Positions 7,392-63,047 of a stretch of DNA of 64,000 bases are shown here, one piece after another. The translations under genes were made by a program, and so were the position numbers. The notes beneath the pieces were generated by a model that saw only the letters and a program-made list of their open reading frames with translations, had not been told where the DNA came from and did no database searches. The stretch comes from Actinokineospora spheciospongiae (lineage in GTDB: Bacteria > Actinomycetota > Actinomycetes > Mycobacteriales > Pseudonocardiaceae). The stretch is taken from contig NZ_AYXG01000051.1 of assembly GCF_000564855.1 (NCBI RefSeq), forward strand, positions 1 to 64,000. The letters are read 5' to 3'. Each line of letters starts with the position of its first letter. Position 1 is the first letter of the stretch.

Positions 7392-7415
7392 GTACCCGTT
7401 CGCCCGATGCTCAAC
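7392..7415 (-). promoter_or_regulatory. Stress-sigma-type promoter match for the gene at 7331
   Basis: Read on the minus strand: GTTG, 14 nt, GGGTAC. It fits GnnT-N14-16-GGGTA, the pattern described for actinobacterial SigB/SigH-type sigma factors. The -10 element ends 60 bp before the ATG. Confidence 0.5.
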
Positions 7416-7570
7416 CCAACTCCGGTCGGGTTGACTCGACCGGATCGACTCGGCGGGGCACCCTGGGAACGACACCTCCGATCGGCGCGGTGGGCGGCCT
7501 CCGGCACGGGATCGGGAAGAACCCGCGTGCGCGCCCACCACACACCGGGCCAGGCGCCGCCCTTCCGCCA

Positions 7571-8515
7571 CTACCGCGTGGCCACCCGGCTGCGGCGCCT
7601 GCCCGCGGGTGCCGGGGGCAGGCTGTCCGGCGACCGGCGCGCCAGGTGCAGTTCGTTGTGCTGCTCTCGCACGACCAGACCGGTGTCGGGGGGTGGTGCG
7701 GTTCCCGCGCGGAGGAACACGACGTCGGGCGCGACCTCGTTCTCCGCCGCCATCGCCGCCAGCGCCGCCGGGTCGGGCTGCCTGCCGGTGCCGTGGTGCG
7801 GGTCCGGGAGAGCGGTCAGGTCCAGGGGCGTGAGTTCGGGCAGCGGGGCCGGGGTGATCCAGGCGGTGCGGCCGGGCAGGCACAACCCGGCCAGCAGGGC
7901 GACCGACCGCCTGCGCGCCGGGTCGTTCCCGCCCAGCACCACCGCTTCCCCCTCCTGCACCCGCCACAGGAGGTCCGCCTCGGCCGGGTCGGGGTCGATC
8001 CCGAGCAGGTCGGACGCCGCGAGGGTGGTGAGGGGATCGCTGTGGCCGCGTCGCACCGGCCAGCGCGGGTAGGCGGGCAGCGGCCAACTGTAGGGCAGGT
8101 CGTCGGGTACGTCGTCACCGAACAGGGGGCGGTAGTGCGCCGGGTCTTTGCGCAGCAGTGCGGATTGGTGGCTGCGGTGCAGGTCCGGGTCGCCCAGCCA
8201 CGGGGGCAGTTGGCCCGTGGCCGCCAGGTCGTGCGGGTCGGGCACTTCGCCGTCGGTGAAGGCGAGCACTTGGGCGGAGACGGAATCGGCGTGGCCCAGC
8301 GCGGTCCACCGCTCGCACACGGCTAGGCCGTAGAGCGCCAGGGCGGGGGTGAAACCGCGCCACATGGCCACGGCCGGGTGGTTCTTCCAGCCGTAGACCG
8401 GCCACACGAGGGCGCGCAGGATCTGGACCGTTTCCACCCTCTGCTTGCCGAGCCTGCCCCGGTCGAGGGTGGCGGCGCTGGCGGTGAAGTCGGGGTGCGG
8501 GAGGAATGTCTGCAC
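7571..8515 (-). CDS. MSMEG_6728 family protein (pyrimidine-dimer glycosylase-like fold)
   Basis: 314 aa. The N-terminal half carries the conserved features of the MSMEG_6728 family: QTFLPHPDFTASAATLD, RLGKQRVETVQILRAL, HPAVAMWRGF, and later RSHQSALLRKDPAHYRPLF. This segment is related to the pyrimidine dimer DNA glycosylase fold, so a DNA-damage role is possible but unproven. Residues after about 165 are poorly conserved, rich in Ala and Pro, and may be a lineage-specific extension. The ATG at 8515 sits directly before the conserved QTFLP and is the natural start. No operon partner is apparent. Confidence 0.75.
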   Translation of the reverse strand: MQTFLPHPDFTASAATLDRGRLGKQRVETVQILRALVWPVYGWKNHPAVAMWRGFTPALALYGLAVCERWTALGHADSVSAQVLAFTDGEVPDPHDLAATGQLPPWLGDPDLHRSHQSALLRKDPAHYRPLFGDDVPDDLPYSWPLPAYPRWPVRRGHSDPLTTLAASDLLGIDPDPAEADLLWRVQEGEAVVLGGNDPARRRSVALLAGLCLPGRTAWITPAPLPELTPLDLTALPDPHHGTGRQPDPAALAAMAAENEVAPDVVFLRAGTAPPPDTGLVVREQHNELHLARRSPDSLPPAPAGRRRSRVATR

Positions 8516-8656
8516 GGGCCGTCAGGTCCGGGTCCGGGCGACCGGGGCGGGGTGACGCCGGGGTGGTGGCGGGGTGGGGCGCACTGCGTGGTCCTCTCGT
8601 TCTCGGTGCGTTGGTCCGCACCGGGGGTGTGGCTCGGCGCGGGCCATCTGTCGCGG

Positions 8657-9178
8657 TCAGCCCTCGGCGGTGCGCTTCAGCCAGTCGTAGATGAGGTGCA
8701 GCAGGTCCGCGCCGGTGACGACCGTCAGGCCGACCGCGACGAGCCGGGCGCTCTTGGGGGCGACGACCAGCCCGCCCAGCAGCGCGGTGCTGGCCCAGAC
8801 TGCGGCGCAGAAGGGGCAGGTCAGCAGCTCACCCATGGCGTGGCTGTGGCCTTGGGCGGTGACGCTCTCGTTCACCTCGCCCGCCCCCGCCGACCCCTCG
8901 AAGCGCGTCAGCGGCGCCCGCAGCGGGCTCATGATGGCGTCCTTGGTGAGCATCCTGCTCGCCTTATGCGCGGCGACAGCGGACAGCGCGATGTCCGACG
9001 CGGCATAGCGCTCCGGCAGCCGGGCGCCCGTGCCCCGGCCGATCAAGACCAGTCCCCCGACCGTGGCGGCGTAGGTGCCGAGTGCGGACAGGTAGCCCGC
9101 CAGTGGTCGGTCATCGCCGTTGTCGTAGCGCGCGCGGATCGTCAGCGCTTTGGTCTTGATGGTGTCGGTGATGCTCAC
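8657..9178 (-). CDS. DUF1360 domain protein
   Basis: 173 aa. The central part reads ALSAVAAHKASRMLTKDAI, then PLRAPLTRFEG, then the cysteine-containing ELLTCPFCAAVWAS, which is the DUF1360 signature; family members are small membrane proteins of unknown function. Two hydrophobic segments flank the Cys-containing loop. GTG 9178 (MSITDTIKTKALTIRARY) was taken as the start, since the frame further upstream runs into the region before the divergent amidohydrolase gene. No ribosome-binding site stands out. Confidence 0.75.
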   Translation of the reverse strand: MSITDTIKTKALTIRARYDNGDDRPLAGYLSALGTYAATVGGLVLIGRGTGARLPERYAASDIALSAVAAHKASRMLTKDAIMSPLRAPLTRFEGSAGAGEVNESVTAQGHSHAMGELLTCPFCAAVWASTALLGGLVVAPKSARLVAVGLTVVTGADLLHLIYDWLKRTAEG

Positions 9179-9269
9179 CCGGCCGGTATGCCCACTTTCG
9201 ACCGCGCCGACACCACGCGCGCGCTCCCCTGCCCGGAAGCGTGCGGCGTCCCCGTCGGGGCACTTTCGC

Positions 9270-9293
9270 GTGTGGAGGCCGGGCAGCGGGTAC
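9270..9293 (+). promoter_or_regulatory. Stress-sigma-type promoter match for the amidohydrolase gene
   Basis: GTGT, 14 nt, GGGTAC. The -10 ends nine bases before GTG 9303, so the transcript would have almost no leader. This agrees with the lack of a ribosome-binding site and supports that start. Confidence 0.5.
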
Positions 9294-9302
9294 CACCTGC
9301 GC

Positions 9303-12475: not shown

Positions 12476-12681
12476 TGGCTTCCTCCTCGATTTCACGGGT
12501 GCAGCCCACACTGCGGTCGAAACGCGCCGATGCGGGGAGCCGTCCGGCTCGCCCCCCGGTCGGGGCCGCGCCCTCGTGGATGGGATGCGGTGTGCGAAGT
12601 GCTGGGGTGATTCCCGGTGTCGGGACTTTCATGCATTTCTCCCCCGAACGATTCGATCCGGGTGAGCCCCGCTGGTCGATG

Positions 12682-12706
12682 GTTGGTCCGGACGCCGCCT
12701 GGTTAT
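12682..12706 (+). promoter_or_regulatory. Variant stress-type promoter match for the SDR gene
   Basis: GTTG, 15 nt, GGTTAT. The -10 differs by one base from the GGGTAT form. It ends 34 bp before ATG 12741. Confidence 0.35.
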
Positions 12707-12740: not shown

Positions 12741-13640
12741 ATGGCACAGGACCAGTACGCACAGCAGGACCCGCGCACCCAGTACCCCCGACCGGAGGAA
12801 CAGCGGGGGCAGGAGCAGGAACACCCCGGCAGCGGGGCGGGCATGTCGCCGAAGCCGGACCACGGCGAGGAGTCCTACCGCGGCAGCGGCAGGCTCACCG
12901 GTCGCCGCGCGATCATCACCGGCGGGGACTCCGGCATCGGCCGGGCCGTGGCGATCGCCTTCGCCAGGGAGGGCGCCGACGTCCTGCTGTCCTACCTGCC
13001 CGAGGAGCAGCGGGACGCCGAGGCGACCGCGGAGGTCGTCCGGGCCGCGGGCCGCACGGCGGTGCTGGTCCCCGGGGACGTCCGCGAGGAGGAGCAGTGC
13101 GGGCGGATCGTGGCGGAGGCGGTGCGCGGGCTGGGCGGGGTCGACGTGCTGGTGAACAACGCCGCCTACCAGATGGCCCAGGAGGGCGGCCTGCTCGACA
13201 TCACCACCGAGCAGTTCGACCGGGTCCTCAAGACCAACCTGTACGCCATGTTCTGGCTGTGCAAGGCCGCCGTGCCGCACCTGCGCCCGGGGTCGAGCAT
13301 CATCAACACGTCTTCGATCCAGGCGTTCCAACCGTCGCCGGAGCTGCTGGACTACGCCACGACCAAGGGCGCGATCGTCAACTTCACCAAGGGTCTGGCC
13401 CAAGACCTCGCGGGCAAGGGGATCAGGGTCAACAGCGTCGCGCCAGGGCCGGTCTGGACGCCGCTGATCCCGGCCACCATGCCCGCGGAGAAGGTGTCCT
13501 CCTTCGGCGGTCAGACGCCCCTGGGCCGCGCGGCCCAGCCCGCCGAGCTGGCGCCGCCGTTCGTGTTCTTCGCCTCGCAGGAGTCGAGCTACGTCACCGG
13601 TGAGGTGCTCGCGGTGACCGGCGGCCAGCCGATCACCTGA
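12741..13640 (+). CDS. SDR oxidoreductase, general-stress (YghA/YdaD-like) type
   Basis: 299 aa. A 45-residue Gln/Pro/Glu-rich leader precedes a classical short-chain dehydrogenase: TGGDSGIGRAVA (cofactor-binding), NNAAYQ, the catalytic Ser in NTSSIQAF and Tyr-x3-Lys in DYATTKGA. The long polar leader and the order of motifs match the YghA/YdaD group, several of which are general-stress proteins; the substrate is unknown. AGGAGGAG lies at 12723-12730 before ATG 12741. The gene is divergent from the envelope triad and followed directly by an 18-bp perfect hairpin. Confidence 0.88.
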   Translation: MAQDQYAQQDPRTQYPRPEEQRGQEQEHPGSGAGMSPKPDHGEESYRGSGRLTGRRAIITGGDSGIGRAVAIAFAREGADVLLSYLPEEQRDAEATAEVVRAAGRTAVLVPGDVREEEQCGRIVAEAVRGLGGVDVLVNNAAYQMAQEGGLLDITTEQFDRVLKTNLYAMFWLCKAAVPHLRPGSSIINTSSIQAFQPSPELLDYATTKGAIVNFTKGLAQDLAGKGIRVNSVAPGPVWTPLIPATMPAEKVSSFGGQTPLGRAAQPAELAPPFVFFASQESSYVTGEVLAVTGGQPIT

Positions 13641-13738: not shown

Positions 13739-13764
13739 GAGTAGCACCCACCAATTGGGGGTAT
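13739..13764 (+). promoter_or_regulatory. Stress-sigma-type promoter match for the STAS gene
   Basis: GAGT, 16 nt, GGGTAT, ending 10 bp before GTG 13775. A near-leaderless transcript is implied. If correct, a putative sigma regulator is itself under stress control. Confidence 0.45.
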
Positions 13765-13774
13765 ATACCCCTGC

Positions 13775-14390: not shown

Positions 14391-14843
14391 TCAGCCGGTG
14401 GCCGAGGCCCGCCTCGGCGAAGCCACCAGCAGGCCCAGTGCCAGCATGCCGATGCCGAGTACCAGGTGCAGCCAGTTGTCGGCGCTGTTCACCGGGACGA
14501 AGTTCGCGGCGCTGTCGTGGTCGATGAACAGCCCGTAGAGCCACAGCAGCAGGTAGATCGCGCCGCCACCGAGGAGGAAGGCGCGCGCCCCGGACAAGGT
14601 GCGCGCCAGCACCAGGCCCGCGACGCCGAAGGCGAGGTGGACCAGGTTGTGCAGCACGGAGACCTCGAAGATCCCGAGCAGCTTCGCCGACGAGCCGTGC
14701 CCGGCGAAGGTGAGCTGGTCGAAGTCGGTGGTCACCCCGGGGATGAACCCGAGGATGCCCACGAGCAGGAATATAGCGCCGACCACGGTGGCCGCGAGCT
14801 GACCGGGGTGGCGGGTGGTCCGGGCGGTGCGCGAAGCGGACAT
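14391..14843 (-). CDS. DUF4383 membrane protein
   Basis: 150 aa with four membrane helices (about residues 15-38, 62-82, 88-108, 122-142). The pattern VGILGFIPGV, the loop with HNLVHLAFGVAGL, and the closing NWLHLVLGIGMLALGL define DUF4383, a small actinobacterial family of unknown function often seen in stress regulons. A second member lies at 27994-28503. GAGGAG precedes ATG 14843, and a stress-type promoter match is 31 bp upstream. Confidence 0.88.
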   Translation of the reverse strand: MSASRTARTTRHPGQLAATVVGAIFLLVGILGFIPGVTTDFDQLTFAGHGSSAKLLGIFEVSVLHNLVHLAFGVAGLVLARTLSGARAFLLGGGAIYLLLWLYGLFIDHDSAANFVPVNSADNWLHLVLGIGMLALGLLVASPRRASATG

Positions 14844-14874: not shown

Positions 14875-14899
14875 ATACCCGGCAGACGCCGCTTGATTC
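14875..14899 (-). promoter_or_regulatory. Stress-sigma-type promoter match for DUF4383 gene 1
   Basis: On the minus strand: GAAT, 15 nt, GGGTAT. The -10 lies 31 bp before ATG 14843. Confidence 0.5.
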
Positions 14900-14973: not shown

Positions 14974-15723
14974 TCACTCCGTGCGGCGTGCGACGTCCGC
15001 GACGAACCGCTCGGCGACGTGGCGCAGCTTCACGTTCTCCTGCTGGGACCGCGCGACCAGGAGCCGGAACGCCTCCTCCGCGCTGACACTCCGGATGGCC
15101 ATCAGCATCCCCTTGGCCTGGTCGATGACCGACCGGGAGTCCAGCGCGGTGCGGAGCTGGTCGACGGCCCGCTGGGCGGACAGGTACCGCTGGTGCCCGC
15201 GCAGCGCGGCCTCGACGGCTGTTGTGTAGAGGTCGAGCAGCCGCTCGTCGAGTTCGGCGAAACCGTGGCCGTGGGCGCTGTAGCAGTTGATCCCCCCCGC
15301 GTGGCCGTCGCCGAGGACCAGGGGCGCGGAGAGGAAGCTGCCCATGCCCGCCCGGCGCGCCTCGTCGGCGAACTCCGGCCACGACCGGGTGGCGTCCCCC
15401 AGGGTCGCCCGGATCAGCATCCCCTCCTCGGCCGCCGTCAGGCACGGCCCGGCGCCCAGGTCGTACTGGCGCAGGTCGAGCCGGGTGGCGACCTCGCTGG
15501 TCGAGGCCGCGGTGTGCGGTGCGCCGTCACGCAGCAGAGTGACGGTGGCGGCGTCGACCCCGGGAACCGCCCTGGTCACCTGGTCGCACACCCGCCCCAG
15601 CAGGTCGTTCAGGTCCTCCTCGGTGTCCAGGCACTCGGTCAGCGCCGCCAGTGCCCCGGTGACCTCGTCGAGCACCGCGGGCCACGCCCGCGAGGGGTCG
15701 ACCGGAGGATCAGGGTGCCCCAT
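14974..15723 (-). CDS. GAF-ANTAR transcription antitermination regulator
   Basis: 249 aa. Residues 20-165 form a GAF sensor domain ([25 protein letters not shown]). Residues 180-245 form an ANTAR RNA-binding domain (ALDSRSVIDQAKGMLMAIRS, then the three-helix stretch AEEAFRLLVARSQQENVKLR). ANTAR proteins bind paired hairpins in nascent RNA to prevent termination. GGGAG precedes ATG 15723. It is a paralogue of the gene at 47790-48533 and is divergent from a second GAF-ANTAR gene. The signal is unknown. Confidence 0.88.
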   Translation of the reverse strand: MGHPDPPVDPSRAWPAVLDEVTGALAALTECLDTEEDLNDLLGRVCDQVTRAVPGVDAATVTLLRDGAPHTAASTSEVATRLDLRQYDLGAGPCLTAAEEGMLIRATLGDATRSWPEFADEARRAGMGSFLSAPLVLGDGHAGGINCYSAHGHGFAELDERLLDLYTTAVEAALRGHQRYLSAQRAVDQLRTALDSRSVIDQAKGMLMAIRSVSAEEAFRLLVARSQQENVKLRHVAERFVADVARRTE

Positions 15724-15795: not shown

Positions 15796-15821
15796 TTACC
15801 CCCTGACGGTGGGTCGCAGTC
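15796..15821 (-). promoter_or_regulatory. Stress-sigma-type promoter match for GAF-ANTAR gene 1
   Basis: On the minus strand: GACT, 16 nt, GGGTAA. It is almost back-to-back with the plus-strand match at 15848, so the two divergent GAF-ANTAR genes may be co-controlled. Confidence 0.4.
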
Positions 15822-15847
15822 ATCACGACGACGTCGAATCAACAGGG

Positions 15848-15872
15848 GTTCAACTCCCGCCCGGGCGGGTAG
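15848..15872 (+). promoter_or_regulatory. Stress-sigma-type promoter match for GAF-ANTAR gene 2
   Basis: GTTC, 15 nt, GGGTAG, ending 89 bp before ATG 15962. The resulting leader of about 80 nt is long enough to hold RNA structure. Confidence 0.45.
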
Positions 15873-15961: not shown

Positions 15962-16684
15962 ATGGACGCGAAGCTGCCGCTCGCCGACGAACTGGCGGCC
16001 GTGTCCCTGCGGATGTCGGGGCTGCTGCTGTCCAGGGAGACGGTCGGCTCGGTGCTCGACTTGATCACGTCGCTGGCCAGGGACACCGTCGCGGGCAGCA
16101 CCGGCTCGGGCACGACGCTGATCGACCCCGACGGGAGCCGGACCAGCGCCGCGGCCACCGATCCGATGGTGGAGGCGGCCGACGGGTTGCAGTACGAGAG
16201 CGGTGAGGGCCCCTGCCTCACGGCGTGGGCGCGGCGCACGACCATCCGGGTTGACGACCTCGACGACCCCGCCGTGGCGGCCAGGTGGCCCCGGTGGACC
16301 GAGGCGGCCCGACCGCTCGGCGTCGCGGCGGTGCTCAGCGCGCCGCTGGTGGCCGGGGGCGAGGCGCTGGGGGCGATGAAGGTGTACGCGGACCGCCCGA
16401 ACACCTTCGGCCCGCACGACGAGCACCTGATGGAGCGGTTCGCCGCCCAGGCCGCGATCCTGCTGGCCAACGTGCGCACGGTCGAGCAGGCGCAGCGGCT
16501 GAGCACCGACCTGGTCGACACCATGCGCACGCGGGACGTGGTGAACATCGCCAAGGGGATGGTCATGGCCGAGGACGGGGTGGGCGAGGACGCGGCGTTC
16601 ACCGCGCTGGCCCGTTCCGCGCGACACCAGCAGCGCCCGCTGGGGGACCTGGCCCGGTCACTGGTCGAGGCCGAGCGGGCTTAG
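15962..16684 (+). CDS. GAF-ANTAR regulator
   Basis: 240 aa. The GAF domain covers about residues 30-165 (GLQYESGEGPCLTAWARR, AVLSAPLVAGGEALGAMKVY). The ANTAR domain covers about 172-235 (LVDTMRTRDVVNIAKGMVMA, then EDAAFTALARSARHQQRPL). It is of a different subgroup from the neighbour at 14974. A GAGGGAAGG stretch precedes ATG 15962. The stop is 11 nt before the SpoIIE phosphatase start, so the two probably form one transcript: a sensor or antiterminator followed by a phosphatase. Confidence 0.87.
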   Translation: MDAKLPLADELAAVSLRMSGLLLSRETVGSVLDLITSLARDTVAGSTGSGTTLIDPDGSRTSAAATDPMVEAADGLQYESGEGPCLTAWARRTTIRVDDLDDPAVAARWPRWTEAARPLGVAAVLSAPLVAGGEALGAMKVYADRPNTFGPHDEHLMERFAAQAAILLANVRTVEQAQRLSTDLVDTMRTRDVVNIAKGMVMAEDGVGEDAAFTALARSARHQQRPLGDLARSLVEAERA

Positions 16685-22285: not shown

Positions 22286-22364
22286 TGCCGGGGGATTTCC
22301 CGGATTGCACCGGTCAACCGCGCCGGTTCCCCTGCCTCCCGGCGGCACTCCATTTGAAGTGTGG

Positions 22365-22422: not shown

Positions 22423-22426
22423 GACC

Positions 22427-23578: not shown

Positions 23579-23656
23579 CCCGACCCGGGCACGTGCGTTT
23601 GATCGACAGCGCACCGGGCAACCGGAGTACCGAGACCGGTGAAAGGACGAATCGCG

Positions 23657-24693: not shown

Positions 24694-24966
24694 GGCACCC
24701 GTTTTCGTCAGGGCACGCTTCGCAGGCCACGAGCTGTGGGCTCAACACGCGACGCACAATCCACATACCGTGTCTACCGCCTTCCCACGCACGCTAACCC
24801 CCCGCACCGGACATGGCAAAGGGCGGTGTGGCCTCACGCACTCCTTCACCCATTCGGGCGACCGCTGACGACCGAAGGGTGTACCCCGGTCCACGCTGTC
24901 GAACGTGGCTGGGAGCGCTGGTCTCAGGCACCGGAGCCCGGTGCCGCGGCCTCGTCCGGCCGCGGA

Positions 24967-24991
24967 GTTTGCGAGCGCGGCGGCGGGGTAG
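24967..24991 (+). promoter_or_regulatory. Stress-sigma-type promoter match for the gene at 25002
   Basis: GTTT, 15 nt, GGGTAG, ending 10 bp before GTG 25002. Both elements are strong matches, and the position supports that start. The rest of the 24694-25001 intergenic stretch holds no recognisable gene. Confidence 0.55.
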
Positions 24992-26154: not shown

Positions 26155-26258
26155 GGGCGGCGGGTTCCCCGGTCGGGTCGGTTGACACCTCGATTTTCCC
26201 GGCTGTATGGGGAAGGGATCCGGTGTGTCAGTGCGGGGGCCGGTGGTACCCGGCGGCC

Positions 26259-28589: not shown

Positions 28590-28613
28590 CTACCCCGTGG
28601 GCGCCGTCCGAAC
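28590..28613 (-). promoter_or_regulatory. Stress-sigma-type promoter match for DUF4383 gene 2
   Basis: On the minus strand: GTTC, 14 nt, GGGTAG. It is divergent from the match at 28712 for the P450 gene. Confidence 0.45.
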
Positions 28614-28711
28614 CCACCAGGAGCGGTGCTCCGCACGACAGGGCACCACCCACCTGCCACGAACGGGTGACCGGAACCACAGATGACGATCATCCAAATC
28701 GGCCTCCGGCG

Positions 28712-28736
28712 GTTTCGGCGCGCCCGGGACGGGTAG
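28712..28736 (+). promoter_or_regulatory. Stress-sigma-type promoter match for the P450 gene
   Basis: GTTT, 15 nt, GGGTAG, ending eight bases before ATG 28745, so the transcript would be nearly leaderless. Confidence 0.55.
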
Positions 28737-30460: not shown

Positions 30461-30485
30461 GGGTAAATGCGTGATGCAGGGGTAG
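30461..30485 (+). promoter_or_regulatory. Possible stress-sigma-type promoter for the GT2 pair
   Basis: GGGT, 15 nt, GGGTAG, ending nine bases before ATG 30495. The -35 match is loose. Confidence 0.35.
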
Positions 30486-32254: not shown

Positions 32255-32267
32255 ACCCGGATCGATG

Positions 32268-32291
32268 GTTCGGCTGCCGCACAGCGGTTAC
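32268..32291 (+). promoter_or_regulatory. Variant stress-type promoter match for the DUF2795 gene
   Basis: GTTC, 14 nt, GGTTAC, ending nine bases before ATG 32301. Its -10 has the same G-to-T change as the SDR promoter at 12701. Confidence 0.35.
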
Positions 32292-32534: not shown

Positions 32535-32572
32535 ACCCACCCACCGTGGTTTGAACCCCGCGGTGGGTGGGT
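32535..32572 (+). terminator. 12-bp hairpin between the DUF2795 and ABC-transporter genes
   Basis: ACCCACCCACCG pairs with CGGTGGGTGGGT around a 14-nt loop. The right arm overlaps the promoter match at 32549-32574, so it could also act as an operator. Confidence 0.5.
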
Positions 32573-32574
32573 AG
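32549..32574 (+). promoter_or_regulatory. Stress-sigma-type promoter match for the sugar ABC importer
   Basis: GTTT, 16 nt, GGGTAG, ending 28 bp before ATG 32603. Overlap with the hairpin makes the call less certain. Confidence 0.35.
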
Positions 32575-35695: not shown

Positions 35696-35738
35696 AACCA
35701 CGTCTCCTGTTTCCTTCCGGGAAACAGGAGACGTGGTT
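35696..35738. terminator. Perfect 19-bp hairpin after the ABC operon
   Basis: AACCACGTCTCCTGTTTCC pairs exactly with 35720-35738 around the loop TTCCG. It lies between the permease and the convergent small gene at 35754. Confidence 0.85.
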
Positions 35739-35996: not shown

Positions 35997-36198
35997 GTCC
36001 GTTTCTCCTTCAGTCGAACCGGGGGGTGTGTCCATCGCTTCGGGGCGGCGCCCCGGGTGTCTGTGGCAGAGGTGTTCCCACTGCGCCGCGATTCATTCGC
36101 GGAGATCACCACCGATGTGCCGGTACCGCCGCACGGGGGTGGTTTCACCATTCACCAGTACGAGCGTCTGCTTACCGTCGAAGTGTTTACCAGCGAAA

Positions 36199-36735
36199 AT
36201 GCTGGATATCACTGCTCCCGTGACACCACCTCCTGCCGCTGTGCTGCTGGATCGGGATGGCACCCTCGTGCACGACGTGCCCTACAACGGCGACCCCGCG
36301 CTGGTGCGGCTGATGCCCGGCGCGATCGAGTTGACCACCGCCCTGCGGACCCGGGGCGTGCGCACCGGGGTGGTGAGCAACCAGTCCGGCATCGGCCGCG
36401 GGATGCTCACCGAGGAGCAGGTGGCCGCGGTCAACGCCAGGGTGGAGACCCTGCTCGGTCGCTTCGGCACCTGGCAGGTCTGCCCGCACCGGCCCGAAGA
36501 CGGCTGCGCGTGCCGCAAACCGCGACCCGGCCTCGTCCTCGCGGCCTGCGCGGCGCTGGGTGTGGACCCGTCCGACACCGTGGTCATAGGCGACATCGGC
36601 GCGGACGTCGACGCCGCCCGCGCCGCGGGTGCCCGCGCGATCCTGGTCCCGACCGAGCGGACGCTGCCCGAGGAGGTCGAGCGCGCGCCGGTTGTCGTCG
36701 CGGACCTGCACGCCGCGCTGGCGGTGGTCCTGTGA
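36199..36735 (+). CDS. gmhB: HAD-IIIA phosphatase, heptose-1,7-bisphosphate 7-phosphatase (GmhB-like)
   Basis: 178 aa. LLDRDGTLVHD contains the nucleophile Asp18 and acid-base Asp20. VVSNQSGIGRG holds the second HAD motif, and GDIGADVDAARAAGA the last acidic pair. The zinc-binding insert C-P-H-x5-C-x-C (CPHRPEDGCACRKPRPG) is the hallmark of GmhB. It should remove the 7-phosphate from a heptose bisphosphate. It opens an operon whose later genes encode the isomerase and kinase/nucleotidyltransferase of the same pathway. ATG 36199 is tentative; GTG 36220 lies closer to the first motif. Confidence 0.85.
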   Translation: MLDITAPVTPPPAAVLLDRDGTLVHDVPYNGDPALVRLMPGAIELTTALRTRGVRTGVVSNQSGIGRGMLTEEQVAAVNARVETLLGRFGTWQVCPHRPEDGCACRKPRPGLVLAACAALGVDPSDTVVIGDIGADVDAARAAGARAILVPTERTLPEEVERAPVVVADLHAALAVVL

Positions 36736-47701: not shown

Positions 47702-47789
47702 CCTGGCTCCTCCATCGTGTCCGGCGAACAGCGGCGGGCAAGCGCCCCTCGGGCAGTCTTTCCCCACCGGTCGGTGGCCAAACAGGGGA

Positions 47790-54011: not shown

Positions 54012-54159
54012 GCCATCTCCTCCGTCGTCGTCCACGGACGGCTTCCCGCACGATCGACGGTGAAACGCGACCAACCCGGTCCGCGGGCCGGGCGTCGACG
54101 CGGCACCCGCTTCGGGGCGCGGTCGGCAACGACGCCGCGCGGCCTCGCCCGGGGCGGTG

Positions 54160-54947: not shown

Positions 54948-55637
54948 TCATGCGGCGGTGTCGGCGGCGCGGCGGACGAGGTCGGCGAAGATCCCGGGGT
55001 CGTCGTGCTCCACCACCGGGAACCCGGCGCCCTGCTCCCCCACCCAGCGCAGCCCGATGCCGGGGTTGTGCACGTCGTGGCCGTCGGCGAAGAACAGGTG
55101 CGGGCTGCCCTGCACCGCGTCCCGGTTGCCCCGGTAGTCGCGCATCATCGGCCCGCGCGCCCGGCCGTCGTCCAATGCCTCGCCCAGCGCGTCGGCGTCC
55201 ACGTGCTCGCAGTTGCGGGCGATGTCGACGATCTCGTGCCGCAGCGAGACGCACCGGCTGTCGCGGAACAGCGCCAGCCGCAGCGCCATGTCCAACTCCT
55301 CTGCCGCCCGCGGGGACTGCTCCTTCGCCGCGTGCACGGCCTCGTTGGCGGGCGCGGTGGTCACCGGCCAGTCCGCCGGGTCGCCCTGCCAGTTCTTCCA
55401 CCCCAGGTCCGGCTCCAGCGCACCCACCACCGGGATCTCCGAATCCAGGAACTTCTTCGGGATCGGGAAGGCGTTGACGTCCTCCAGCAGGAAGCACCGG
55501 TGGTCCAGGTGCACCCGGTCGACCAGGTCCAACTCGTCCCGGGCCCGCAACAACCTGACGATCGCCACCGTCGACCACGCGCACGCGACATCGGTGTAGA
55601 CCACGATCGTCCCCGGTCGCACTTCAGGTCGTGGCAT
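54948..55637 (-). CDS. DsbA-like thioredoxin-fold protein (FrnE type) with a CAWS site
   Basis: 229 aa. IVVYTDVACAWSTVAIVRLLRAR is the first strand and active-site helix of a DsbA/FrnE fold. The site reads C-A-W-S, with only one Cys instead of C-x-x-C, so disulphide exchange in the usual way is unlikely; a glutathione- or mycothiol-transferase-like or isomerase role is possible. GSPHLFFADGHDVHNPGI contains the cis-Pro loop. No signal peptide. GGAAGGTGGGG precedes ATG 55637, and a stress promoter match is upstream. Confidence 0.8.
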   Translation of the reverse strand: MPRPEVRPGTIVVYTDVACAWSTVAIVRLLRARDELDLVDRVHLDHRCFLLEDVNAFPIPKKFLDSEIPVVGALEPDLGWKNWQGDPADWPVTTAPANEAVHAAKEQSPRAAEELDMALRLALFRDSRCVSLRHEIVDIARNCEHVDADALGEALDDGRARGPMMRDYRGNRDAVQGSPHLFFADGHDVHNPGIGLRWVGEQGAGFPVVEHDDPGIFADLVRRAADTAA

Positions 55638-55669: not shown

Positions 55670-55694
55670 GTACCCAGGTCGGCCGGGAAGGAAC
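55670..55694 (-). promoter_or_regulatory. Stress-sigma-type promoter match for the DsbA-like gene
   Basis: On the minus strand: GTTC, 15 nt, GGGTAC. The -10 lies 32 bp before ATG 55637. Confidence 0.5.
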
Positions 55695-55814
55695 GCGAGT
55701 ACCCCACATCGGGACTGGGCCCGCATCGAACCTGAGAGCCCGGGTAGTCGATCCTTCGGGGTGTGGTCCTGGTGGTGGGGCTGGGCCCGCGGTTGACGAC
55801 CGCCCCGGGCATGC

Positions 55815-56759: not shown

Positions 56760-57161
56760 TCATCCACCCGGTCGTGGTTTCGTTCGACCGTTGACGTACC
56801 CACCCATGCCTGTCCGTCGAACACCTGCCGTCACGGTTTCCTCAACACACATGACCGGGAAGAGGCCGGTCACTTCCAAAGCCCGTCGAGGAGGGCTGCC
56901 CGAGGGGGACACCACCGCGAATCCCCTGCCGTTGTCCACGCAGCGTTGCCTGGTCTCCAGCAACATGGCCAGGCCGGTGGAACCCATGAACGACAGGGCG
57001 GTCAGGTCGATGACCAGCGCGCGGTCCCCGCTCGTGGCCGTGGCGGTGTCCAACGCCGTGTTCACCACCGGGGCGGTCACCATGTCCAACTCCCCGCTGA
57101 TGTGCACCACCACGTGCGACGTCGTCTTGTCGACCCGAACATCGATCAGGTTCCCGTGCAC
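56760..57161 (-). CDS. STAS-domain anti-sigma factor antagonist
   Basis: 133 aa. LIDVRVDKTTSHVVVHISGELDMVTAPVVN and LVIDLTALSFMGSTGLAMLLE form a canonical STAS domain with the phosphoacceptor Ser (G-S-T-G). SPPRRALEVTGLFPVM is the final helix-strand part. GTG 57161 has GAGAGGA upstream; ATG 57182 is an alternative. A strong stress-type promoter match lies 115 bp upstream, so this candidate regulator may be induced by the sigma factor it controls. Confidence 0.83.
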   Translation of the reverse strand: MHGNLIDVRVDKTTSHVVVHISGELDMVTAPVVNTALDTATATSGDRALVIDLTALSFMGSTGLAMLLETRQRCVDNGRGFAVVSPSGSPPRRALEVTGLFPVMCVEETVTAGVRRTGMGGYVNGRTKPRPGG

Positions 57162-57275
57162 CCCGGTCCTCTCTCGGCGCATTCGGCACTCACTCCGGTT
57201 CCCGCGCGGCTTCGTCGAACCCGCGAAGCCGCCGCGGTGTCCAGGAGCACCGCCGGGCACCCGTCCACGATCGGG

Positions 57276-57301
57276 CTACCCGCGCACAGGCGCGGGGAAA
57301 C
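57276..57301 (-). promoter_or_regulatory. Stress-sigma-type promoter match for the STAS gene at 57161
   Basis: On the minus strand: GTTT, 16 nt, GGGTAG. Suggests feedback control of a sigma-factor regulator. Confidence 0.5.
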
Positions 57302-57411: not shown

Positions 57412-57939
57412 TCACCCGACGCCGTGGTCGGTGGCCTGCCGCCCCAACTCCCGCTCACCCATCTCCCGGACCGCGTCGGACAACGAGGGAAAGGTCGGGA
57501 TACAGGTGTGCGCGCCGCTCAGCCGCACCACCCGCAGGGCCAGCCCGTCCGCGGCGACCAAGGCCAGCGCGTACCCCCTCGCACCGCGCGCGGCCGCGTC
57601 CTCGACGATCAGACCGAGACAGGACGCCGACAGGATTTCCACCGCCGACAGGTCCAGGATGGCGACCGGCTCCGGCAACGCCGCGAAGACGTCGCGCAGC
57701 CCCCTCTCAGCGGTCAAGTCCAACGCCCCGCGCAGCACCGCCACGCCGATGTCCGAACGGTAGGAGACCAGACGGGCGAGCGGCGCCGCGCCCGCCGCGA
57801 GGTCACGACCAAGGGGTGAACTGTGCTCCCCTCGCACAGCCGAGTGCGCCACATGCGGTCCGGCCCCGCGGCGGTCACCGGGTCCCGCCCCGGCGACGTG
57901 TCCTCGCGCGGCCTCATTGTCACTCTTTCGTGCATCCAC
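57412..57939 (-). CDS. STAS-domain protein, deviant phosphosite (paralogue of 13775)
   Basis: 175 aa. A 65-residue polar leader precedes IGVAVLRGALDLTAERGLRDVFAAL, AILDLSAVEILSASCLGLIV and FPSLSDAVREMGE. The match to the protein at 13775 is close over the whole STAS domain, including the S-A-S-C-L loop in place of the D-S-x-G-L phosphoacceptor loop. GTG 57939 was chosen; the leader makes the start uncertain. These two proteins may form a separate subfamily that cannot be regulated by the usual phosphorylation. Confidence 0.72.
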   Translation of the reverse strand: MDARKSDNEAARGHVAGAGPGDRRGAGPHVAHSAVRGEHSSPLGRDLAAGAAPLARLVSYRSDIGVAVLRGALDLTAERGLRDVFAALPEPVAILDLSAVEILSASCLGLIVEDAAARGARGYALALVAADGLALRVVRLSGAHTCIPTFPSLSDAVREMGERELGRQATDHGVG

Positions 57940-58123
57940 GGCCGGGGCATACCCGCTCACCCGGAATCCACGTCTGTTGGGCCCAGACGGTCCATCCGTT
58001 CGGCACCAGCGCGCGGGGTCGCCCACCTGTGCGGACCGCAACGCTGGAACAGAACTCGCCGAGTACCAGGTGGGCGGGGTCGATCGTGAACGTCGAGCAG
58101 GACACGGCCGCTGCACCTGTTCT

Positions 58124-58306
58124 TCATGCTGGGCGGCGGTGGGGTGCCGGGAAGGCGGCGGCGACCCGGCCGACGAGGCAGGTGGCGAGTGCGCGGACGG
58201 CGTCGACGTCGGTGGAGCGGTCCAGTGCGGTGATGACGTGGTGGCTGCGGCTTCCGACTCGCAGTTCGTCCGTCCCGTCCTGAGAACGCAGGTCCACCTG
58301 GACCAC
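58124..58306 (-). CDS. Possible small protein, unknown
   Basis: 60 aa. Read as VQVDLRSQDGTDELRVGSRS, then HHVITALDRSTDVDAVRALA, ending in an Ala/Arg-rich helix. Codon third positions are GC-rich over its whole length, unlike most of this stretch, and AGGGGTG lies before the GTG. I do not recognise it. It would be on the same strand as, and upstream of, the STAS gene at 57412. Confidence 0.4.
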   Translation of the reverse strand: MVQVDLRSQDGTDELRVGSRSHHVITALDRSTDVDAVRALATCLVGRVAAAFPAPHRRPA

Positions 58307-58993
58307 GTGGGCACCCCTGTCCGAGATTACCGGTCGCGCGGGATCACCCCCACCACGGGCAAAGGCTCACCTCCGGCCTGGATGCCCTCGGCCCGCACGT
58401 CGGCGAGCGCGGCGCCTGGCCCATCTGGGTTGGGAACCGCCGGGCAAGGCCTCCTTCACCGAGGCCGTCGCCGGACTGACCGCCATCCGGATGAGGTGCG
58501 GAACGACCAAGCCCGCGAAGCCGGTACCATGCGGAACGCCTTCCCAGGCCGCTCGGTCCTGTGGCGCGTTGTTCCGCTGATCACCCTCACCACTGCGCGG
58601 CAGTTCCGAACTCGCACCGGATTCCCTCCGACCGCCGGAGGTCGAGCGGCCGAAGCTCCGCCACAGACACTTGCGGGCAGGATCGTCGACAATGCGGCCA
58701 CAGCGACAGCGCGCACCGAGTTCTCCTTTGCACTCGCAGGGGCCCGACGCCAACGCCATCCCCACCTCGAGCGTGCCCGTTGACCATCGCGTAGCCGCGC
58801 CGCTGTTCAGAAGGGGACCCAACAGGTGATGTCCATGTCTCGGTCGGCCAACCGGGTGTGGGTCCGCCGCAGGGTCAGTTCGCGCTGGTGGATCGCCGCC
58901 CGCAGCACGTCGGCGGGACCGGGTCACCCAGGATCACCGAAACACCACGCCACCGGATGGAGCACGCCTTGCGTTCGACACCAAAGGGTAAGA
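58307..58993. other. 687-bp stretch without a convincing gene
   Basis: Frames on both strands lack consistent codon bias. A minus-strand frame from 58716 begins with a signal-peptide-like run (RAVAVAALSTILPASVCGGA) but continues into Arg-rich sequence with no family resemblance. It may be decayed DNA. Confidence 0.45.
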
Positions 58994-59317
58994 TCACACC
59001 AACGGGTTCGGCACAAGTGAGAATCGGCCAAATCCACGTGTGTTGAACCCGGGGCCGGCTTGGTGAATGCCGATGGGTACGGGCGTGCACGTCAGCGCGA
59101 GGCGTTCCGCGCGACGGCGCAGCAGAACCCAACCGTCGCTGGCGCTTTCGACGTCGAAGCCTTGCTCGAAGTACTCGTCGAGTGCACGGCGCATCGCCGC
59201 GCCTGCGGCAACGTACAAAACAGGGCAGGGTGCCCTCGGGGCAGGCCCGCTCAGCGCGGGAACCGCTCCGGGGGCCGACGAGGTCTGGGAAAGAGCGTCG
59301 CTCACGTCACCGACCAT
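58994..59317 (-). CDS. Hypothetical small protein
   Basis: 107 aa. Not recognised. The middle has a clear secondary-structure pattern: CPVLYVAAGAAMRRALDEYF, then EQGFDVESASDGWVLLRRRA and ERLALTCTPVPIGI, which is probably alpha/beta. Third-position GC is about 75 percent, above that of neighbouring non-coding DNA. AAGGGG lies close to ATG 59317. It is divergent from the STAS gene at 59632. Confidence 0.45.
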   Translation of the reverse strand: MVGDVSDALSQTSSAPGAVPALSGPAPRAPCPVLYVAAGAAMRRALDEYFEQGFDVESASDGWVLLRRRAERLALTCTPVPIGIHQAGPGFNTRGFGRFSLVPNPLV

Positions 59318-59631
59318 GACCCCTTGTTCCCACCGCGGGGCGCGGTGAAACCTGGATCGTCCGGACAACGGTGGCAGGGCGGCCGTGCAGCCGGACCAGC
59401 CCGCCCGGGCCCGAACCACGGCACACCCACAGCACATCAACGACCCGCGCTCCCCATAGACGCTGCGCCCTGCTGCCGTTGAGGTCGCCACGCGGATGCA
59501 CCTCGAACAGGTGGGGTGAACAACGGCCCCCGCAGTGGACGAAGAAAGATTCATGTCTACGGTGACTCTCGAACGGGCGGTTGAGCAGACAGCCGTCGCC
59601 GTCGATGGCTTCCTCAACCGGAGAACTCCAG

Positions 59632-59988
59632 GTGAACGATTGTCTGCTCGACACAACGGTTGCACGGACCGCAGGATGGACCACCGTGCAGGTCAAGGGC
59701 GAGGTCGACCTCCTGACCGCGCCCGCCCTGCGGGCGGCCGTCTCCGACGGCCTCACCCGGTTGCCCTCACCCGCCGTCGTCGTGGTGGATCTGACCGGGG
59801 TCACTTTCCTGGGGTGCACGGGCATCGGGGTGTTGGTCGACGCTGGGCTGCGCGCCCGCGAACGCGGTGGTGCCATGGTCGTGTCCTGCCCCGGGGGAAC
59901 CGCGTCTCGTCGGATCTTCACGCTCCTCGGACTCGATGGCGTTCTGACCTTGATCGAGAACCTCGATGACCTGGACGGGGTGATCTGA
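59632..59988 (+). CDS. STAS-domain protein with Cys at the phosphoacceptor position
   Basis: 118 aa. TVQVKGEVDLLTAPALRAAV and VVVDLTGVTFLGCTGIGVLVDAGLRARERGG form a full STAS domain, but the loop reads G-C-T-G where active antagonists have Ser, so phosphorylation would have to use the following Thr or not occur. RRIFTLLGLDGVLTLIENLDDL is the typical end. GTG 59632 was chosen because GGAG at 59620-59623 is kept in the pseudogene copy at 43854; ATG 59605 is also open. Confidence 0.8.
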   Translation: MNDCLLDTTVARTAGWTTVQVKGEVDLLTAPALRAAVSDGLTRLPSPAVVVVDLTGVTFLGCTGIGVLVDAGLRARERGGAMVVSCPGGTASRRIFTLLGLDGVLTLIENLDDLDGVI

Positions 59989-60851: not shown

Positions 60852-60929
60852 GGCGCCTGGTCGGCGCCACACCCGAGTGAACACCACCCGGCAAGGTGAG
60901 CATCGTCGCGGGCGCATCCGGCCGTCGTC

Positions 60930-60980
60930 CGCACCTTGTGCCCGCGGTCCATGTGGGCGGGACCGCGGGCACAAGGTGCG
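60930..60980. terminator. Perfect 21-bp hairpin
   Basis: The arm at 60930-60950 pairs exactly with 60960-60980 around a 9-nt loop. It lies six bases past the stop of the minus-strand gene at 60987 and downstream of the plus-strand gene at 60851. Confidence 0.8.
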
Positions 60981-60986
60981 TCGCGG

Positions 60987-61217
60987 TCAGCCGTTGAGTC
61001 GTCGGGCGAGCAGTTCCTTGCCCTCTTCGGCGCCCTTGTGGCTCGCGCCCTGGGCGCGGCGGAAGAAGTCCGCCAGTTCGCTGTCGCCCGCGCGGTCGGC
61101 GTCGGCGATGTAGGTCTCCAGGCGCAGCGCGTTGCTCAGGCACGCCTCGACGAACCAGATGATGTTGTAGTCCTTGTCCTGCGTACCCGTCACCTGACCG
61201 CTCTCGTTGCCGGACAT
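60987..61217 (-). CDS. Small helical (ferritin-like) stress protein
   Basis: 76 aa. After a polar start, DYNIIWFVEACLSNALRLETYIADADRAGDSELADFFRRAQGASHKGAEEGKELLARRL forms two helices. It resembles the protein at 35754 in helix spacing (LSNALRLETYIADADRAG against SLKAGHDYGQYVRDAKNAG). GAGGAGG lies 6 nt before ATG 61217, and a strong stress promoter match is 38 bp upstream. Function unknown; a metal- or DNA-binding helper role would be speculation. Confidence 0.75.
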   Translation of the reverse strand: MSGNESGQVTGTQDKDYNIIWFVEACLSNALRLETYIADADRAGDSELADFFRRAQGASHKGAEEGKELLARRLNG

Positions 61218-61255
61218 CCGTTCCTCCTCGTGGTCGGGGTTTCCTGCCCTGCGTG

Positions 61256-61280
61256 GTACCCGTCGGAGACGGGTTGACAC
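61256..61280 (-). promoter_or_regulatory. Stress-sigma-type promoter match for the gene at 61217
   Basis: On the minus strand: GTGT, 15 nt, GGGTAC. It is divergent from the match at 61315, with 34 bp between the -35 elements. Confidence 0.55.
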
Positions 61281-61314
61281 CCATGCGCACGGGAGGAAGT
61301 GGGGCATCCGGCTG

Positions 61315-61339
61315 GTTTCCGCCGGAACGGTGCGGGTAT
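61315..61339 (+). promoter_or_regulatory. Stress-sigma-type promoter match for the erythromycin-esterase-like gene
   Basis: GTTT, 15 nt, GGGTAT: the best match in the window to the SigB/SigH-type consensus. It ends 40 bp before ATG 61380. Confidence 0.6.
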
Positions 61340-61379
61340 GCGGTTCGGACACCGGCCGACGACCGCGAGGAGGACACCC

Positions 61380-62660
61380 ATGTCCCGATACGGGGATGAG
61401 GTGGCGGCGCTGGCCGCGCCGCTGACCGATGCGGGCGATCTCGACGTGCTGCTGGATCGGGTCGGCGACGCGCGGGTGGTGATGGTCGGTGAGGCCAGCC
61501 ACGGCACGCACGAGTTCTACCGGTGGCGTGAGGCGCTGACCCGGCGGCTGATCACCGAGAAGGGCTTCTCCTTCGTGGCGGTGGAGGGCGACTGGCCCGA
61601 CTGCGGCCGGGTGGACCGGGCGGTGCGGTGCTCGCGGCACGCCCCCGAGGACCCGCGTGCGGCACTGGCGGCGTTCGAGCGGTGGCCGACGTGGATGTGG
61701 GCCAACGAGGAGGTCGTCGACTTCTGCCGGTGGTTGCGCACGCACAACAGCGGGCTCGACATCCACCGGAGGGTGGGCTTCCACGGCTTGGACGTGTATT
61801 CGCTGTGGGAATCGCTGCGCGAGATCCTGACCCACCTGCGCGAGCACGACCCCGCCGAGGTGCCCGCGGCCTTGGCCGCCTACCGGTGCTTCGAACCCTA
61901 CGGCGAGAACGCGCGGTACTACGCGTCGGCCACCCGCCTGGTGCCCACCGGCTGCGAGAACGAGGTGGTCGACCTGCTGGTGCGGCTGCGGGGGCGGGCC
62001 GCGGGCGGCGGCGCGTTCGGGGCGTGGCAGAACGCCGAGGTCGTCGCGGGGGCCGAGCGCTACTACCGGAGCATGGTCCGCGGTGGGGGTGAGGCGTGGA
62101 ACGTCCGCGACCGCCACATGGACGAGACCCTCGACCGGCTGCTCACCCACCACGGGCCGGGCGCGAAGGGGGTGGTCTGGGCGCACAACACCCACGTCGG
62201 GGATGCCCGCGCCACCGACATGGCAGTCCACGGCGAGGTCAACCTCGGCCAACTCGCCCGTGAGCGGTACGGCGCGGACCAGGTGGTGCTAATCGGGTTC
62301 GGCAGCCACCGCGGCACCGTCATCGCGGGCGACTCGTGGGGGGCGCCGATGCGCGAAATGCCCGTGCCCGCCGCCCGCCCCGGCTCCCTGGAGGACGTGC
62401 TGCACGCGGCCGCACCCACATCGGCCCTGTTCGTCTTCCCCCGCGACGACCGCCCCGACCTGCTCACCACCGAACTCGGGCACCGCGCCGTCGGCGTGGT
62501 GTACCACCCCGAACGCGAACACCGGGGCAACTACGTGCCCACCGTGCTCGGCGACCGCTACGACGCCTTCGTCTGGATCGACCGGACCCGCGCACTGCAC
62601 CCGCTCCACACCCGTCAGACGGACGCACTGGAGCCGCAGACCCATCCGACAGGCACCTGA
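61380..62660 (+). CDS. Erythromycin-esterase family protein
   Basis: 426 aa. VVMVGEASHGTHEFYRWREALTRRLI near residue 35 has the conserved Glu and His of the family; FVAVEGDWPDC and VVWAHNTHVGDARATDM hold further active-site His/Asn residues; VLIGFGSHRGTVIA follows. EreA/EreB hydrolyse macrolide lactones, but most chromosomal members, including this one, are of unknown substrate, and resistance is not claimed. GAGGAGG precedes ATG 61380. The best stress promoter in the window lies upstream. Confidence 0.85.
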   Translation: MSRYGDEVAALAAPLTDAGDLDVLLDRVGDARVVMVGEASHGTHEFYRWREALTRRLITEKGFSFVAVEGDWPDCGRVDRAVRCSRHAPEDPRAALAAFERWPTWMWANEEVVDFCRWLRTHNSGLDIHRRVGFHGLDVYSLWESLREILTHLREHDPAEVPAALAAYRCFEPYGENARYYASATRLVPTGCENEVVDLLVRLRGRAAGGGAFGAWQNAEVVAGAERYYRSMVRGGGEAWNVRDRHMDETLDRLLTHHGPGAKGVVWAHNTHVGDARATDMAVHGEVNLGQLARERYGADQVVLIGFGSHRGTVIAGDSWGAPMREMPVPAARPGSLEDVLHAAAPTSALFVFPRDDRPDLLTTELGHRAVGVVYHPEREHRGNYVPTVLGDRYDAFVWIDRTRALHPLHTRQTDALEPQTHPTGT

Positions 62661-63022
62661 CCGAACGTCCCCGGTGCAGAAACCCATGACGACAGGCCTG
62701 CCACCGACGCCACCGCTCGTGCCGCGCAATGCCCGGCGCCGTCCGCACCGTCGCCTCCCGCAGAGGCGACCCGGTTCGGCAGGCGAGGCGCCCCCCGCGT
62801 CCGCGCACCTGACACCGGTCGTCGGCGAACTCGCCGAACCAGACCTCGACCCCGACCGGCAGGCCTTCCGGTACCCCGAGCACCACCCGGGGGGCAAGCG
62901 GACCGGTCCCGGTCGGCGTGGTTCCCGCTCCTCGACCCCAACGTCCACAAGCCGTCACCTGCGGATCCCGATGGTGACAACCCGGGTGGTGAGTCGGCAC
63001 GAGCCCGACCCACCACCCCCAT
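62661..63022. other. 362-bp stretch without a recognisable gene
   Basis: Pro/Arg-rich frames on both strands have no codon bias or family resemblance. Nothing else is seen until the promoter match at 63023. Confidence 0.45.
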
Positions 63023-63047
63023 GTGGAACACGCTCGAAAACGGGTAG
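63023..63047 (+). promoter_or_regulatory. Weak stress-sigma-type promoter match for the Pro-rich small gene
   Basis: GTGG, 15 nt, GGGTAG, ending 38 bp before ATG 63086. The -10 is a full match, but the -35 has G instead of T in the last place. Confidence 0.35.

Follow-up and report, generated by a model that had tools for sequence, protein, structure and literature searches.

Within the genome of Actinokineospora spheciospongiae (G000; 7.53 Mb, 262 contigs), bases 1-64000 of contig NZ_AYXG01000051.1 (C51), here called the window, carry repeated copies of a motif, GNNT-N14-16-GGGTA, that resembles the promoters read by general-stress sigma factors of the SigB/SigF/SigH type. A sequence-only reading of this DNA had listed the motif or a near variant at 18 coordinates before about eighteen genes, several of them leaderless, and had seen in the window a stress regulon in one place. 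The locus raises the question of whether these sites are promoters, which sigma factors would read them and why so many lie together. Taken together, the analyses make it very probable that the sites are real promoters of general-stress sigmas of this type, that the window is a stress island concentrating them and that about a third of them yield leaderless mRNA. The parts are of a known kind; their concentration in one place is unusual.

Enrichment and clustering of the sites

All 18 coordinates were read in the sequence, and each carries the claimed pattern or a near variant. The exact form GNNT-N14-16-GGGTAN is present at 14 of them. The site at 55670 has a spacer of N17, and at 12682 and 32268 GGTTA replaces GGGTA and the best -35 reading is GGTT, one base earlier. 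The window holds 20 distinct exact N14-16 sites, of which 14 had been listed; the six others are at 6310, 8048, 27690, 55723, 58966 and 59057. Genes were called by our own script (65 window genes), so that starts and small genes are approximate, and the Pfam scan covered 50 window open reading frames (ORFs). The sites at 9270 and 32268 fall inside ORFs as drawn by this caller and are upstream only when the start is moved to an in-frame codon 9 nucleotides (nt) past the hexamer.

The density of GNNT-N14-16-GGGTA was then compared between classes of DNA. In the window it was 1.73/kb in same-strand upstream DNA and 0.038/kb in coding DNA. The sequence-only reading had named an equal frequency inside genes as the outcome that would speak against promoters; the motif was about 45 times denser upstream. 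Upstream DNA of the other contigs had 0.25/kb. These are a non-random sample of 17 contigs or contig parts (1.03 Mb in the pattern counts), and include C104, C181, C134, C56 and C73, which were chosen for their sigma genes. As a control, the pattern was searched backwards, resulting in upstream densities of 0.27/kb in the window, 0.18/kb on contig C28 and 0.18/kb on the others, and 0.038/kb in window coding DNA. Matches of the forward pattern numbered 741 in the genome and 25 in the window (Poisson P about 1.5e-8). A peak of spacer length at 15-17 was observed in upstream DNA and none in coding DNA.

The genome-wide search with a control, which had been proposed as a check, gave a divided answer. 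The loose pattern did not exceed its backwards control (741 vs 793), and therefore only its occurrences upstream of genes carry information. The tight form GTTT-N15-16-GGGTA occurred 32 times vs 3 in the control, and it exceeded the backwards control in 16/16 genomes of the genus, the narrowest case being 32 vs 20. For G[GT]TT-N15-16-GGGTA, all 8 window sites were upstream of genes, as were 9/13 on the other contigs. Genome-wide there are 76 distinct sites of this form, with 8 in the window vs 0.65 expected.

Chance matches, or an effect of the composition of GC-rich intergenic DNA, would be the simplest account of the motif, and the genome-wide count of the loose pattern speaks for it. This origin was rejected on the basis of the backwards, wrong-hexamer and wrong-spacer controls. 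The enrichment is confined to upstream DNA while the controls stay flat, and the spacer peak, the start-codon register and the conservation before CYP152 and DUF4383 genes described below point the same way. We give a chance origin hardly any weight.

The sites were also scored with an independent matrix. It was derived from 24 promoters mapped for SigB-family sigmas in Streptomyces coelicolor (PMC8346170, Table 2), without the sites of the sequence-only reading. At a threshold of 12, matrix sites were 88 times denser upstream than in window coding DNA, in agreement with the proposed SigB/SigH-type class. Of the coordinates listed earlier, 17 precede a gene and score 9.2-16.9, the site at 15796 being weak (9.2). 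The site at 63023 (+) was rejected as a promoter; it has GTGG for GNNT, scores 7.3 and has no same-strand gene nearby. The earlier set was also incomplete, as the GGGTA-only pattern had overlooked at least nine further sites: seven of GGGCA or GGGAA type, one GTTC-GGGTA and one GGATA.

Genes with an upstream matrix site at threshold 12 made up 17/65 in the window, 4/49 on the rest of C51 and 28/870 on the other contigs (window vs others p 6e-10; window vs rest of C51 p 0.015). The share on C28 was 9/52, a figure that is biased because this contig was chosen as already dense. Thus the idea of a regulon in one place stood as far as the concentration of sites is concerned. Only 8/76 tight sites lie in the window, so that the regulon extends well beyond this hot spot. 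The stretch of C28 (L013-L015) is a second dense region, in which several starts lie 9 nt past the hexamer. Another dense spot outside the window was seen on contig C245, where 32872-33626 carries three tight SigB-type sites within 0.8 kb.

Start-codon register and the supported sites

The leaderless layout was examined in 1.21 Mb of the same genome and 19 regions of relatives. Of the GNNT..GGGTA sites, 30/104 are followed by ATG or GTG in frame at a distance of exactly 9 or 10 nt from the hexamer, vs 2.5 in shifted controls, and start codons at 7, 8, 11 and 12 nt were at background level. This sharp peak bears out the earlier remark that several mRNAs would be leaderless. Matrix sites at threshold 12 gave a similar result, with a start at this register in 27/123 vs 3.3 expected. 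For comparison, TANNNT elements showed a start peak at 6-8 nt (183/660 vs 23). The shares at the two peaks are similar, and the notion that leaderlessness is peculiar to SigB-type promoters found no support. Published leaderless shares, as stated in the parts of the reports considered, are 22.2 percent in S. avermitilis (PMC8780764) and 24 percent in Mycobacterium smegmatis (PMC6448022).

A start codon 8-10 nt past the promoter would lead to transcription from that codon and to an mRNA without leader. For about a third of the promoters, strong positional evidence predicts the start codon as the point where transcription begins. If both peaks mark +1 on the start codon, the TA of GGGTAN and that of TANNNT would align at about -12/-11, and GGG would be an upstream extension of the -10 element. 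Our literature search was limited, and we do not claim the fixed 9-10 nt register as unpublished. Its use is practical: start codons can be re-annotated from the promoter sequence.

In the window, 26 sites were supported, namely 17 from the sequence-only reading and nine added ones (eight before a called gene, one before an uncalled ORF). Other matrix hits were left out if they scored below 12 or fell in coding DNA. Two non-coding hits of at least 12, at 110 (+) and 13765 (-), have no gene in position and were omitted. The supported sites are given below with the score from the S. coelicolor SigB-family matrix; promoter assignments are predictions.

7392..7416, minus strand: SigB-type promoter of the DUF6766 gene 6903-7331; score 11.0; ATG 60 nt on, with Shine-Dalgarno-like sequence.
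9270..9293, plus strand: SigB-type promoter of an amidohydrolase-family gene; score 12.0; in-frame GTG at 9 nt (9303), predicted leaderless; caller's start 9270.
12681..12706, plus strand: GGTT-N16-GGTTAT variant before the short-chain dehydrogenase/reductase (SDR) gene 12741-13640; score 11.7; ATG 34 nt on, with Shine-Dalgarno-like sequence.
13739..13764, plus strand: SigB-type promoter of a STAS gene; score 12.6; in-frame GTG at 10 nt (13775), predicted leaderless.
14875..14899, minus strand: SigB-type promoter of the DUF4383 gene 14391-14843; score 12.1.
15796..15821, minus strand: weak SigB-type site before the GAF-ANTAR gene 14974-15675 (start uncertain); score 9.2.
15847..15872, plus strand: SigB-type promoter of the GAF-ANTAR gene 15962-16684, then the SpoIIE-type phosphatase gene 16696-18156; score 13.2.
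24967..24991, plus strand: SigB-type promoter of gene 25002-25709; score 14.1; GTG at 10 nt (25002), predicted leaderless; 25083-25709 without Pfam match.
28590..28614, minus strand: SigB-type promoter of the second DUF4383 gene 27994-28503; score 10.6.
28712..28736, plus strand: SigB-type promoter of the putative CYP152-type fatty-acid peroxygenase gene 28745-30001; score 14.5; ATG at 8 nt, predicted leaderless.
30461..30485, plus strand: SigB-type promoter of the glycosyltransferase gene 30495-31364; score 11.1; ATG at 9 nt, predicted leaderless.
32267..32291, plus strand: GGTT-N15-GGTTAC variant before a DUF2795 gene; score 9.9; ATG at 9 nt (32301), predicted leaderless; caller's start 32265.
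32549..32574, plus strand: SigB-type promoter of the solute-binding protein gene 32603-33943, then two genes to 35667; score 16.9.
55670..55696, minus strand: N17 SigB-type site before the DSBA-like gene 54948-55604 (DSBA below Pfam cut-off); score 10.3; ATG with Shine-Dalgarno-like sequence 32 nt on.
57276..57301, minus strand: SigB-type promoter of the STAS gene 56760-57182; score 15.7.
61256..61280, minus strand: SigB-type promoter of the small protein gene 60987-61217 (without Pfam match); score 12.9.
61315..61339, plus strand: SigB-type promoter of the erythromycin-esterase-family gene 61380-62660; score 16.6.
9188..9213, minus strand: added site GTGT/GGGCAT before the DUF1360 gene 8657-9178; score 13.0; GTG at 9 nt, predicted leaderless.
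22296..22319, minus strand: added site GGTT/GGGAAA before the metallo-beta-lactamase-fold gene 21461-22225; score 12.1; in-frame ATG at 10 nt (22285), predicted leaderless.
23597..23621, plus strand: added site GTTT/GGGCAA before gene 23657-24307 (without Pfam match); score 15.5.
24881..24904, minus strand: added site GTTC/GGGTAC, 187 nt before the STAS gene 24319-24693; score 12.3.
26164..26188, minus strand: added site GTGT/GGGAAC before gene 25750-26154 (without Pfam match); score 12.2; ATG at 9 nt, predicted leaderless.
36185..36209, plus strand: added site GTTT/GGATAT before the HAD hydrolase gene 36241-36735; score 16.6; in-frame GTG at 10 nt (36220), predicted leaderless.
47759..47783, minus strand: added site GTTT/GGGAAA before the phosphoketolase gene 45284-47701, then the acetate kinase gene 44163-45278; score 15.5.
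54042..54066, minus strand: added site GTTT/GGGAAG before the alcohol dehydrogenase gene 52800-54011, then the thiamine pyrophosphate (TPP) enzyme gene 51019-52803; score 15.0.
59326..59351, minus strand: added site GTTT/GGGAAC before the uncalled ORF 58994-59317; score 16.9; ATG at 8 nt.

A start at 8-10 nt is present at 11/26 of these sites. At 13/15 of the remaining ones a Shine-Dalgarno-like sequence precedes a usable start, the exceptions being 28590 and 24881; the choice of start among the 15 was our judgement, and 15796 and 23597 are ambiguous. ORF 58994-59317 (minus strand, 107 amino acids, without Pfam match), which our script did not call, is possibly a leaderless small gene.

Three further observations were made in the window. 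The palindromic sequence GGGGTATATACCCC at 13758-13771 forms two opposed -10 elements, of which the minus-strand one (13.4) has no gene in position. A perfect 12-bp inverted repeat (TCTCCTGTTTCC / GGAAACAGGAGA) at 35703-35731 is terminator-like; two convergent genes, with their ends at 35667 (+) and 35754 (-), flank it. The segment 56001-60000 has a lower GC content (0.694), with few convincing genes at about 57750-59680.

Conservation of the sites and the sigma factors

P450s of the CYP152 type use H2O2. The window gene 28745-30001 is a P450 by Pfam, and residues 1-401 of its 418 align to P450 152A1 (1izo; E 2.8e-98); it is predicted to encode a CYP152-type fatty-acid peroxygenase. A CYP152 match at 1e-60 was found in 37/297 genomes of the family. 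Within the genus, 3/16 genomes have a strong match, and the rest reach 4e-11 or weaker. Among the best 30 of 39 matches, 25/30 loci have an upstream site of at least 10.5, and one in-gene control stretch gave 0/30. The start lies 8-10 nt past the hexamer in 24/25 of the site-bearing loci.

Similar results were obtained with DUF4383 homologs at 80 named actinobacterial loci. GNNT-N14-17-GGGTA was present at 44/80, compared with 2/80 for the backwards pattern and 6/80 for the opposite strand. With the matrix at 11, sites were found at 31/80 vs 1/80 in the control, and within the genus at 10/21 vs 0/21. Orthologs of window genes were tested with the matrix as well, dropping those below 45 percent identity. 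Orthologs of site genes had a site in 16/24 cases, vs 4/19 for orthologs of genes lacking one, at threshold 10 (p 0.005) and in 11/21 vs 3/22 at threshold 11, which is also significant; DUF4383 alone contributed up to ten pairs.

Candidate sigma factors were identified with profiles. Three genes exceed the NCBIfam SigB/F/G cut-off (TIGR02980), on contigs C104, C181 and C134. Each overlaps or adjoins an upstream gene with an HATPase_c_2 (RsbW-like) match. This match clears the Pfam threshold for C181 and C134 but falls short of it for C104 (20.3 bits, cut-off 27.4). A SigB-type promoter heads the RsbW-like/sigma pairs at C181:27640 (16.6) and C134:5026 (19.3), that is, two of the three anti-sigma/SigB-type sigma pairs of the genome. 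Autoregulation is stated for the SigB-type family of S. coelicolor in the section considered of PMC3184153. The promoters before the C181 and C134 pairs are what such autoregulation leads one to expect, and thus tie the motif to these sigmas.

The promoters could be real and yet belong to another sigma than these three, for instance to one of the distant ones on C56 or C73. Three more sigmas match the SigBFG model, though with scores under the cut-off (two on C56, one on C73), and the gene at C56:24380 has a weak upstream site on the sense strand (10.1) and a stronger one on the opposite strand (12.6). For the remaining two, the 300 nt upstream contain no site that reaches score 10. Two of the three SigBFG-type pairs begin with the promoter and the SigB-family matrix fits; we therefore consider another sigma improbable.

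In the favoured account, general-stress sigmas would be freed by partner switching, and RNA polymerase would then read a -35 element GNNT and a -10 element GGGNA, as expected from the family. Genes of the kind that feeds partner switching, coding for STAS, SpoIIE and GAF proteins, are found in the window itself, and the sigma would therefore probably control part of its own input. Five window genes are over the Pfam STAS cut-off (13910, 24319, 30063, 56760, 59686). Those at 55815 and 57412 are just below it, and the former shows weak similarity to HATPase_c_2 as well (20.1 bits, cut-off 27.4); a SpoIIE gene begins at 16696. When only proteins not encoded in the window served as queries, the 1.21-Mb sample gave 11 STAS-like proteins, of which the window has five, C28 three and the surroundings of the C134 sigma pair two; the 6/12 obtained with window queries is a biased count. 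Thus site-dense regions also house partner-switching genes.

A further alternative is that SigB-type promoters here answer developmental sigmas of the SigF/SigN kind, active in sporulation, and not environmental stress. SigB-family members share promoters, and according to the part of PMC8346170 considered, the sporulation-specific SigF, SigH and SigN of S. coelicolor prefer a GTTT -35 element. In our genome 5/32 GTTT-N15-16-GGGTA sites lie in the window. Among SigF targets, sspA has a leaderless mRNA and the promoter GTGT-N16-GGTTAC (PMC4282423). On the other side, the window's Mn catalase, CYP152 peroxygenase, phosphoketolase and PhoU resemble stress regulons, and the SigF-dependent genes of M. 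smegmatis, in the sections considered of PMC4694148, include Mn catalase and PhoU. Both families occur in the window, neither gene with a listed site. We regard a developmental signal as doubtful, though deserving attention; environmental stress would be the likelier signal.

Recurrence of the neighbourhood and comparison with known systems

Part of the neighbourhood is found again, in shuffled form, in a congener as well as in distant Actinobacteria. In genome G004 of the genus, reciprocal best hits of 24 window genes lie in an 80-kb stretch, partly reordered, and 14/77 genes of this stretch have a strong site. The DUF4383 region of G008 has such sites at 12/57 genes. At the 80 named DUF4383 loci, strong sites become more frequent among the genes as more window genes are shared: 39/756 with one, 36/374 with two, 22/187 with three or four and 31/151 with at least five (extremes p 1.1e-8, in statistics that ignore phylogeny). 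Of the eight loci with at least five shared genes, three are site-poor (L112 1/23, L096 1/23, L075 0/13). DUF4383 is present in 13/16 genomes of the genus. The island is apparently accessory, since CYP152 occurs in 3/16 genus genomes and the GAF-ANTAR protein of 15962-16684 is without a match at 1e-30 in the remaining 15 genomes of the genus, which kept this protein out of the comparison.

Several results weigh against our account, beside the genome-wide count of the loose pattern. Within the genus, the exact pattern was about as frequent before orthologs of motif genes as before those of the other genes (5/18 vs 11/40), and exact sites thus turn over between orthologs. The contrast in the matrix test of orthologs was not significant at threshold 12 (8/19 vs 4/24, p 0.09). 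The C104 pair has no site of at least 10 within 300 nt upstream of its three tested genes, and a profile search of the genome placed no SigB-family sigma gene on C51. Furthermore, the DUF4383 regions of G007, G013 and G014 are site-poor (0/58, 2/52 and 1/34 genes), compared with 8/138 genes with a strong site in random stretches of G013.

The concentration might also reflect gene content only, with families typical of SigB regulons sitting together and no selection for clustering. The climb of site density with shared window genes shows that content and sites go together, as this explanation holds. Other genera also have groups of window genes together in stretches of up to 20 kb (12 shared genes at L136, 11 at L112), which argues for a retained neighbourhood; yet L112 has a site at only 1/23 genes. 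Gene content as the sole cause is a real possibility, though short of probable. The recurrence raises the question of why a stress regulon remains physically together; selection may hold the island together. A more far-reaching reading, less likely than not, is a recurrent, reshuffled and accessory stress island of Actinobacteria that gathers genes and SigB-type promoters, including the anti-anti-sigma genes by which the sigma is switched on, and whose leaderless members share one rigid layout, with GGG as an extension of the -10 element and TA at -12/-11 fixing the start codon as +1. If this is true, the layout could let genes move as cassettes that join promoter and start codon without a 5' leader.

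For the genus, the sites provide a map of the general-stress regulon that can be tested with RNA. They would link families of unknown function (DUF4383, DUF2795, DUF1360, DUF6766) and the CYP152 peroxygenase to this regulon. A limited search found no paper that brings together Actinokineospora, SigB, stress and sigma factor. Titles and abstract openings of the Streptomyces literature, in a likewise limited search, contained nothing on clustering of SigB regulons or on a stress island.

The single elements of the window are well known from other Actinobacteria. SigB-family promoters of S. coelicolor have a -35 element GNNT or GTTT, a spacer and a -10 element GGGTA, GGGCA or GGGAA (PMC8346170), and the matrix derived from them recovers 17/18 sites of the sequence-only reading at 9.2 or above; the part of that account considered does not describe clustering of targets. 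For sspA of S. coelicolor the mapped transcription start site is the translation start (PMC4282423), and its GGTTAC is a precedent for the sites at 12682 and 32268. From what is given there, sspA is a single leaderless gene, whereas the sites of the window and genome are a population of promoters in one fixed register. Among hypoxia-induced transcription start sites of M. smegmatis, GGGTA was found in the -10 region of 56 promoters, which were assigned to SigF (PMC6448022). This set rests on experimental start sites, whereas the window sites are known from sequence, and clustering is not stated in the sections considered.

The nearest precedent is the SigF-dependent cluster MSMEG_1758-1807 around sigF of M. 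smegmatis, in which a long run of genes falls in a sigF mutant. As reported in the sections of PMC4694148 considered, its promoters have GTTT, GTGT or GGTT, N15-17 and GGGNA, several of them 8-11 nt from the start codon, and the cluster includes RsbW, numerous unknown proteins and a P450 whose site lies at 9 nt; Mn catalase and PhoU are SigF-dependent elsewhere in that genome. Identity of this P450 with the window CYP152 was considered and found unsupported (0/297 Mycobacterium genomes at 1e-60, where an empty answer by itself shows nothing; the query did match in 37/297 genomes of its own family). The M. smegmatis cluster contains sigF, in contrast to the contig of the window, which carries no such sigma. 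Like that cluster, the window is a dense run of genes with such a promoter and holds partner-switching genes of the STAS and SpoIIE kinds.

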